A stretch of DNA of 64,000 bases from Halomicrobium urmianum (GTDB taxonomy: Archaea; Halobacteriota; Halobacteria; Halobacteriales; Haloarculaceae). Position 1 is the stretch's first letter. Each line of letters starts with the position of its first letter. The translations under genes and the position numbers were made by a program. Below, piece after piece: positions 23,641-26,594 of the stretch. The DNA lies in NCBI RefSeq assembly GCF_020217425.1, contig NZ_CP084090.1, positions 1,302,001 through 1,366,000 of the forward strand, given 5' to 3'. Under the pieces are notes generated by a model. It was not told where the DNA came from. It did not search any database and was given only the letters and a program-made list of their open reading frames with translations.

Positions 23641-23694
23641 ACCGAGCAGAAACCGTGTCGGTCCCGGCCGAATTGTCCGGTGACGGGAGCGTTT

Positions 23695-23712
23695 TGACTG
23701 AACGTCCAGTCA
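23695..23712 (+). promoter_or_regulatory. Palindromic operator candidate upstream of the MFS gene
   Basis: TGACTG-AACGTC-CAGTCA is a perfect inverted repeat with 6-bp arms and a 6-nt spacer ending 9 nt before the MFS start. The sequence type resembles operators of TetR/AcrR repressors. No TetR gene is in the window. Confidence 0.5.
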
Positions 23713-23720
23713 GCCGCGGT

Positions 23721-24959
23721 ATGGCCGATCGCTTCCAGTTCTATCCCCTCTACCTGACGCGGTTCGTCGCGAGTCTCGGCTACATCACGCTACTGACGCT
23801 GTTGCCGACGTACATCGAGGCCCTGGGCGCGACGGGCGTCGTGGCCGGCCTGTTCGTCACGGCCCTGGGGGTCGGCCGGACGGTAGCCATCCTCCCGCTG
23901 GGCTGGGCGGCCGACCGCTACGACAAGCGCGCTATCCTACTGTTCTCGCTGCTGCTCAGCGGCGTCTCCTACGGCCTCTTTACCCTCGTTGACTCGTCGC
24001 TCGGGTTCATCGTCGCCCGGACGCTCCAGGGTCTGGGCATGGTCGGCACCGGGATGGTGAGCCTCGCGCTGGTCGGCGACCTCGCGGCGGCCGACGACCG
24101 GGCCAACCAGATCGGGAAGTACAACTCCTGGCGGATGGCCGCCGGCGTCATCGGCACGCTCGGCGCGGGCGTCCTCTACGACTACTACGGGTTCGACCCC
24201 ATCTTCGCCGTCCTCGTGGTGCTGTTCGCGCTGGCGCTCGTCGGCGTCTGGTGGCTCGTCGACAGCGACGACACGACGGTCACCTCCTTCGCCTTCTTCG
24301 ACCTGGCGCTGAACGACCGGATCCTCACGGTCACGAGCTTCCGGGCGCAGTACGCCGTCTCCGTGACGCTGGTCCGCAACTGGATGCCCATCTTCGTCGG
24401 CGTCGCCGTGGCGCGGGGCGGGCTGGCGCTTTCCGCCACCGCCGTCGGCGTCGTCGTCGCCACCGAGAAGTTCACCAACATGCTCGGCCAGCCGTTCGCA
24501 GGCCGGCTCTCGGACCGCTACGGCCGCGGCCTGTTCATGGCGGTGGGCGGCGGCGCCTACGGGCTGGTCGCGCTGGCCATCCCGCTAGCGCCCGCCGCGG
24601 GCGAGGCGCTGGGGCTCGCCGCGACGCTCCCCGTCCTCGGGACGATGCCGGCCGCCTTCTTCGTCGCCGTCGCGCTCAACGGGCTGCTCGGGCTGGCCGA
24701 CAGCCTCCGCGAGCCGGCCAGCATGGCGCTGTTCGCCGACGAGGGGAAGGGCAGCGGCATCACCAGTAGCTTCGGCATCCGCGGGCTGGTCTGGCGGCCC
24801 GGCGCACTGATCGCGCCGCTCGTGGGCGGGTACCTGATGGACACCGCCGGCATGAACTGGGTGTTCGTCCTCGCGGGCGTCACCGCGCTGACCGGCGTCG
24901 CGACGTTCCTCGGCATCGTCTCGAAGCGGTACGGCCCGCGGGAACTCGCGCGCTGGTAG
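23721..24959 (+). CDS. MFS transporter
   Basis: 412-aa, 12-helix major facilitator. The A-motif is visible as GWAADRYDKRAILLFS after helix 2 and again as GRLSDRYGRGLFMAVG in the second half. The start ATG at 23721 (MADRFQFYPLYLTRFVASLG) sits right after the palindromic operator candidate; the longer frame upstream would run through that operator and is not used. Resembles drug/metabolite exporters; the substrate is unknown. Confidence 0.9.
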   Translation: MADRFQFYPLYLTRFVASLGYITLLTLLPTYIEALGATGVVAGLFVTALGVGRTVAILPLGWAADRYDKRAILLFSLLLSGVSYGLFTLVDSSLGFIVARTLQGLGMVGTGMVSLALVGDLAAADDRANQIGKYNSWRMAAGVIGTLGAGVLYDYYGFDPIFAVLVVLFALALVGVWWLVDSDDTTVTSFAFFDLALNDRILTVTSFRAQYAVSVTLVRNWMPIFVGVAVARGGLALSATAVGVVVATEKFTNMLGQPFAGRLSDRYGRGLFMAVGGGAYGLVALAIPLAPAAGEALGLAATLPVLGTMPAAFFVAVALNGLLGLADSLREPASMALFADEGKGSGITSSFGIRGLVWRPGALIAPLVGGYLMDTAGMNWVFVLAGVTALTGVATFLGIVSKRYGPRELARW

Positions 24960-25012: not shown

Positions 25013-26594
25013 CTACGTGCTGCGGAACAGGTCGTGGTAGAACTCGAGGATGTCGTACTCGTCGACCGTGCCGTCGCCGTTGTAGTCGTGCTGACTGGCG
25101 TTCGACCTGATCTCGTCCGACTCGTACCGGTCGGCGAACGCCCGCATGTCGTCGATGTCGTGGTCGCCGTCGCCGTCGACGTCCTCGACGAGGTCGTCGC
25201 CGTCGAGGTCGCCCGCGGGTCCGGACGGCTCGTCCGCCGACTCCTCGCCGGTCGAATCGCCGTCGGCCGAAGGTGAGTCGGCCGACGCACCGTCGGGCGC
25301 GAGCAAGTCCTTGACCGTGTCGCCCATGTACTGATCGCCGGTCAACAGGGTCCACTCGGCCGGCCGCTCCGAGACGAGTTCCGGGACCTCCTGGTCGGGG
25401 TCGTAGGGGTTGGTGAATCCCTCGCCTTCGAAGTCGCGCTCGAACATGCGCGGCGCCCAGATCGGGTCGAAGTTCCGGGCCGTCGAGTGGACGGGCCGGG
25501 TGGAGAGCCACTCGGCGACGTGCTTGCCGTAGTCGGGGTCGTGCTCCGCCCAGTTGGCCTCGCGAGCGCCCTCCATGGTGATCGCGCCGCCGACGGCCAC
25601 GGAGGCGTCCGGATCGAATCCCCAGGAGGTCAGGACGACGGGGGCGACGTCGTAGGCGGGCGTCTGGTCGTCGTAGGACACGTCGCCGTCGTAGTTGACC
25701 GGGACGAGGAAGTCGTCGTAGTCCTCGGGCGTGGTCGGTCCGTGAGCCGGGTAGAGTTGCAGCGTGTACCCGATGTTCTCGCCGTCGAACTCCTCGATGA
25801 CCGCGCCGAAGGTCGCCTGCGAGTACCGCGGTGATCCCATCAGCGTCAGGTTGTCAGCGTGGTTCCGGATGGCGTCGACCCACGGCTGGGCCGCGTCCAG
25901 CCACTCGTTCCACCAGTCGACCAGCGCCTGGCCGCTGACTCCGTAGTTAGAGTTGCCGTGCGGCGTGTGAAACGGCTCGAAGACGACGTGGTCGCGGTCC
26001 GCGTACCGCTCGGCGACGACGTCCCAGAACAGCTGGACCTCCTCGCTCAGCGTCTCGTCCGTCCACGCCCGGTTCGTGTCGCGGTGGTAGCTGACGAGCG
26101 CGTACGCGCCCTCCTCGGCGCACTTCCGGACCGTCGGGTCGAGGTAGGCCCGGACCTGGGCCTCGTCGAAGGCGACCGGCTCCGGGTTCCCGTCCGACTC
26201 GTGTTCAGCGATGTCGAAGGCCTTGACGGGCAGTCGGATCACGTTCGCGTGCCAGCCCCGCTCGGCGTCGGTCGCCAAGTCGATCACCTGCTCCGTGTTC
26301 TCGCCCCGGGCCTGCGCGGTCACGTCGATCCGCTTCGGGTCCGCGATTGCGACCCCGTGCAGTTCCACCTTCTGGCCGTCGGGATCGACGATCTCGTTCC
26401 CGTCCCGCTCGAGGCCGCGGCGGCGATTCCCCGTCGTGGTCTGCGGCGGCGCTGCCCGCCGCGCCGGCACCCAGTCCCACCGCGAGCGCGCCCGCGCCGG
26501 CGGCCGTCCGCATGAAGTGCCGCCGAGACGCAGTGGCTCGCTCCCGGGTTCGCATCCGATCCGTATCGCCAGTCCGTTCGATGTCGTCTGCCAT
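25013..26594 (-). pseudogene. GH5-like secreted protein with dockerin-type repeats, frameshifted and lacking catalytic Glu
   Basis: The Tat signal (SRRHFMRTAAGAGALAVGLG, from the ATG at 26594) is in one frame; the rest (RGLERDGNEIVDPDGQKVEL onward) is in another. The shift lies within the GC run at about 26415-26440. The body is a GH5 subfamily-2 barrel: LYPAHGP and MGSPRYSQATFGAVIEEF match that group. However, the acid/base NEP motif reads HTP in VVFEPFHTPHG, and the nucleophile TEWG motif reads TSWG in VVLTSWGFDPDAS. The C-terminus has two dockerin-like calcium loops, DVDGDGDHDIDD and DYNGDGTVDEYD. The frameshift could be a true mutation or a sequencing error; the substituted active site is independent of it. 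Confidence 0.75.

Follow-up and report, generated by a model that had tools for sequence, protein, structure and literature searches.

Within the 64,000-nucleotide stretch of the Halomicrobium urmianum genome analysed here (the window), one gene for a GH5-like protein has, judging from its sequence, five of the eight canonical active-site residues replaced, a body under average purifying selection and a still recognisable export leader that is offset from this body by one base. In all likelihood, catalysis by classical GH5 chemistry has thus been lost. We further consider it rather probable that the gene represents a lineage-specific, selected GH5 pseudoenzyme that is exported, dockerin-tagged and would bind glycan without cutting it.

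The initial annotation had read positions 25013–26594 as one protein and had overlooked the one-base offset. As the interval comprises 1582 bases, which is no multiple of three, it holds two reading frames. The parts of the gene are as follows.

25013–26413, minus strand: GH5-like body, a single open frame ending at the stop at 25013 (PF00150, codon usage, codon-position GC)
25301–26413, minus strand: barrel region, body residues 1–371, homologous to intact GH5 proteins (homologue alignments)
26425–26594, minus strand: Tat-type export leader with an SRRHF motif and a hydrophobic stretch (motif by eye)
25043–25186, minus strand: dockerin-like tail with two calcium-loop-like repeats (PF00404, E 0.017, below the cut-off)

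The match of the body to PF00150 (Cellulase; E 1.4e-17, 64.6 bits, cut-off 23.5) places it in the GH5 family. A codon-usage scan located the body frame at 25025–26414, and its GC contents at codon positions 1/2/3 were 0.695/0.418/0.940. The leader ORF starts with the ATG at 26594 and ends at 26205 on the minus strand, shifted by one base relative to the body frame. A GTG start at 26470 in the ORF list is an out-of-frame reading of leader DNA. As sequenced, the twin-arginine leader is therefore not in frame with the mature protein, as Tat export would demand, and one protein cannot be made from both parts by ordinary translation. The four closest relatives, L047–L050, carry RR leader and body in one frame each.

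The canonical GH5 active site, which we take to consist of Arg, His, Asn, Glu, His, Tyr, Glu and Trp, reads R H H T Q Y S R in the present protein, compared to R H N E H Y E W in a 42-row alignment of homologues. Three of the eight residues are thus kept. The alignment assigned them to the following codons.

26234–26236, minus strand: R60, kept
26084–26086, minus strand: H110, kept
25967–25969, minus strand: N149H, the Asn preceding the acid/base Glu
25964–25966, minus strand: E150T, acid/base glutamate lost
25757–25759, minus strand: H219Q
25751–25753, minus strand: Y221, kept
25625–25627, minus strand: E263S, nucleophile glutamate lost
25475–25477, minus strand: W313R, active-site tryptophan lost

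The loss of both catalytic glutamates, which the initial annotation had proposed from the exchanges of NEP for HTP and of TEWG for TSWG, was borne out by this comparison: the first motif reads FEPFHTPHGN (FEVYNEPQGN in relatives) and the second VVLTSWGF (VFMTEWGF in relatives), with Thr and Ser where every homologue row covering the positions has Glu. The extent of the loss is wider than had been claimed, the two glutamates being among five replaced residues. All 42 homologue rows retain the Asn and first Glu, and all 39 rows reaching those positions the second Glu and Trp, although these counts are not independent given the close relationship among many of the rows. The rows were distinct, with E up to 1e-20 and more than 250 residues, and did not include the copies from the window itself; L006 was below the length limit, loci L094–L102 were absent from this alignment, and L013, L019 and L031 (truncated) were omitted from column counts, leaving 39 homologues. 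In L047–L050 all eight active-site residues are intact.

Phmmer matches of the body included the solved structures 1tvn, 1egz, 1g01 and 1a3h, presumably all members of GH5_2. In alignments to solved cellulases, these columns again faced the catalytic motifs (1tvn and 4hty for the first, 4hty for the second). Neither these nor the homologue alignments offered an alternative register with Glu at both positions. Compared to the nearest relative, the five replaced codons differ by eight bases in total, which can hardly be explained by a single event. In L039 (G000:C1:1521712-1522590), a further GH5 gene of this genome, the conserved Tyr of the active site, which follows strand 6, is exchanged for Phe; it is the one row with this exchange in the 42-row alignment.

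One might assume that new residues stand in for the lost catalytic pair and that the protein follows another mechanism or acts on another substrate. Selection on the scaffold, the retention of Arg60, His110 and Tyr221, and the numerous replacements in the segment from residue 61 to 150 would be compatible with such an altered enzyme. However, both glutamates as well as the Asn, His and Trp are gone and neither catalytic position holds an Asp or Glu, which makes this explanation very unlikely.

Replacements at conserved positions were concentrated in the active site. Nine of the 56 columns that are at least 95% conserved in the 39 homologues differ in the present protein, namely five of the eight active-site columns versus four of the other 48 (p 0.0015). 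All nine conserved Gly columns and seven of eight conserved Trp columns were kept, the lost Trp being that of the active site. In a leave-one-out control, the homologues had a median of 0 and a maximum of seven changed columns, every one being compared with a column set of its own (50 to 60 columns where shown). With only the four close relatives as reference, the excess was modest (5/8 active-site columns versus 56/229 others, p 0.029), and for the surroundings of the sites the p values were 0.07 within two residues, 0.14 within three (not significant) and 0.044 within five. The same test on L050 gave no excess, with none of eight active-site columns changed.

Codon models pointed to selection on the body as a whole. 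With 331 codons and seven taxa, the branch leading to the gene had an omega of 0.094, with omega = 1 rejected (2lnL 35.1) and no difference from the background (p 0.53); five taxa yielded 0.095, with the same outcome (2lnL 27.9, p 0.41). The control branch, L050, had an omega of 0.037 (p 0.052 against background). These values come from a custom GY94-type script with F3x4 frequencies that leaves the difference in third-position GC between this genome and the relatives unmodelled. The third-position GC of the gene (0.93–0.94) lies within the range of four neighbouring genes (0.89–0.95), compared to 0.74–0.83 in the four close relatives, and its second-position GC is 0.42–0.43; the gene has acquired the host genome's third-position signature yet kept a low second-position GC. 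With its normal coding composition, an omega of about 0.09 and neutrality rejected, the body does not look like junk.

The same data bear on the assumption that the gene is a decaying pseudogene, i.e., an acquired or redundant cellulase whose active site drifted once selection had ceased and which the frame break has finally inactivated. In the tree, which groups the gene with the four close relatives (support of 66 only, for the branch separating L050 and the outgroups), its branch is long, 0.48 compared to 0.20 for L050. Moreover, 61 of the 237 columns invariant in the four relatives are changed here; the corresponding figures for L050 are 30/206 with the window gene included in the set, or 66/303 against the other three relatives alone. 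Long branch and changed columns together indicate that some relaxation is possible. The long branch, the offset between leader and body, the restriction of the gene to one genome out of seven in the genus and a role that six other GH5 genes could cover all speak for decay. They have to be set against the low omega and the rejection of neutrality, the clustering of losses at active-site columns in the family-wide comparison, the still recognisable leader and the state of the reading frame: within the first 975 bases of the body, no gap breaks the frame in comparison with L047 or L049, all gaps being multiples of three, while the comparison with L048 adds a lone base at position 5, and that with L050 a compensating pair. 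(Further on, in the barrel end, linker and tail, the nucleotide alignment becomes unreliable, and many of its gaps have lengths not divisible by three.) We therefore regard decay as possible but doubtful. An AlphaFold2 model built from a four-row alignment reached a pLDDT of 43.7 and was too poor for use.

The simplest explanation of the frame offset is an error in the sequence or a null mutation of very recent date. The source genome (4.25 Mb, six contigs) has seven genes matching PF00150, and the six other GH5 proteins retain the Asn-Glu pair and the second Glu (L038–L040 by alignment; L042, L043 and L044 by motifs only). A second GH5 gene, L042 (G000:C1 near 920141, about 919123–920719, outside the window), likewise looks split: the barrel and an FN3-like part share one frame, and a stretch judged cohesin-like by eye and a dockerin follow in a different one. 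With breaks in two of the seven GH5 genes, the other five having been examined within their matched parts, sequence errors are a serious possibility; recent real mutations behind the breaks are possible as well. Programmed +1 frameshifting could also join leader and body, and both parts are indeed recognisable across a single offset. By eye, however, neither a slippery site nor a stop-codon signal was discernible, the four relatives are single-frame, and the offset in L042 occurs at a different place, which points to sequence errors. We thus consider frameshifting barely plausible. Elsewhere in the genome, L088 (G000:C2:223872-225113), a copy with 66% identity to the MFS transporter gene at 23655–24959 of the window, contains two in-frame TAG codons.

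L047–L050 share 59–62% identity with the present protein and were, in the samples searched, the only matches above 47% outside this genome. They resemble it in the layout of leader and barrel and differ in their intact active site and single frame. Among the seven genomes of the genus, the gene was found in this one only, the next best match being 47%. The initial annotation had suggested looking for a conserved inactive clade. No such clade appeared in four overlapping samples, namely 145 relatives as well as 146 genomes from the family, 392 from the order and 391 from the class (one genome per species; E limits 1e-3, 1e-60, 1e-40 and 1e-75), the active-site residues being read in the 42 aligned rows, and the close relatives are all intact. 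With a single genome carrying it, the inactive form has no evolutionary replicate. A contig scan geared to close relatives returned one relative, from Natronobiforma cellulositropha, at 41% identity; viral contigs yielded zero relatives and plasmids three records (best 40.8%), all of them more distant than the four intact genes. The regions around three of the four relatives (G041, G027 and G012, the fourth being G007) contained no match to any of 11 window neighbours, which is compatible with transfer as well as with its absence. The protease and universal-stress genes occur together in two congeners, where the 10 kb examined lack the GH5 gene.

The earlier suggestion that the protein may bind polysaccharide without cutting it thus holds in part: there is strong support for the predicted loss of classical GH5 catalysis, and the average selection seen for the scaffold agrees with binding, while the expected inactive clade did not turn up in the samples searched. 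The tail matched PF00404 (Dockerin_1) at E 0.017 and 15.7 bits, below the cut-off of 22.9. Among five aligned proteins, PF00404 was matched in two, both close relatives (best E 2.5e-07), in an alignment whose window row ended before the tail; a dockerin-like tail stands at the end of L047–L049. Leaving this gene aside, the genome contains nine dockerin matches with E values of 0.001 or lower, together with one match to cohesin PF00963, in a 284-residue frame (L091:1375-2226, minus strand). The C-terminus of this cohesin protein is PGF-CTERM-like, scoring 22.0 bits, just below the cut-off of 24.5. Taken together, the lone cohesin with its PGF-CTERM-like tail and the dockerin matches make a surface-anchored cohesin that holds dockerin proteins possible.

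Under the pseudoenzyme reading that we favour, the gene would encode, or would have encoded until very recently, an exported protein whose catalytic centre is dismantled and whose fold is kept by selection. The former cleft or a conserved surface may hold beta-glucan or another glycan, and the tail may dock onto a cohesin, for example the genome's single cohesin protein with the PGF-CTERM-like tail. Its putative role would be that of a glycan-binding or scaffolding part alongside the six other GH5 proteins. A more elaborate version appears improbable to us: an archaeal cellulosome-like system in which a paralogue has turned into a dockerin-tagged, non-cutting receptor on a surface-anchored cohesin, holding substrate for its active siblings.

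The case adds to the non-catalytic GH5 proteins already described. Those named in the part of the work of Aspeborg et al. (2012, PMC3526467) considered here comprise GH5_30, a GH5_1-derived group from Xanthomonas with expansin, a GH5_8-like lipoprotein group and one member of GH5_48. As in the present protein, their catalytic machinery is lost, in some instances on long branches, and that paper's description of a GH5 module with incomplete catalytic machinery applies to the protein reported here. The GH5_48 case is the same in being a single inactive member among active relatives; its authors left open whether it reflects an emerging function or a sequencing error. Unlike the present gene, none of the cases named in this part of the paper is archaeal or dockerin-bearing. 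In Rsi24C-GH5 of Clostridium thermocellum, according to the same text, the acid/base residue is absent and the module interacts with crystalline cellulose non-catalytically (PMC3526467). That protein is an anti-sigma factor sensor, whereas the present gene combines a Tat-type leader with a dockerin-like tail. The inactive GH28 pectinases of leaf beetles are described, in the part of the source considered, as pseudoenzymes of an expanded polysaccharide-degrading family acting in the same pathway (PMC6549527); they differ in family and organism and in comprising several inactive members. A literature search, mostly at the level of titles and abstracts, found no haloarchaeal inactive GH5 protein.

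Transfer of annotation would misname this gene 'cellulase', which calls for caution. On the reading preferred here, it would offer a clear example of a cellulase relative with a dismantled active site on a selected scaffold, beside intact GH5 siblings and a small cohesin–dockerin set. If its product is made, the gene would provide a test of non-cutting cellulase relatives as archaeal glycan receptors.
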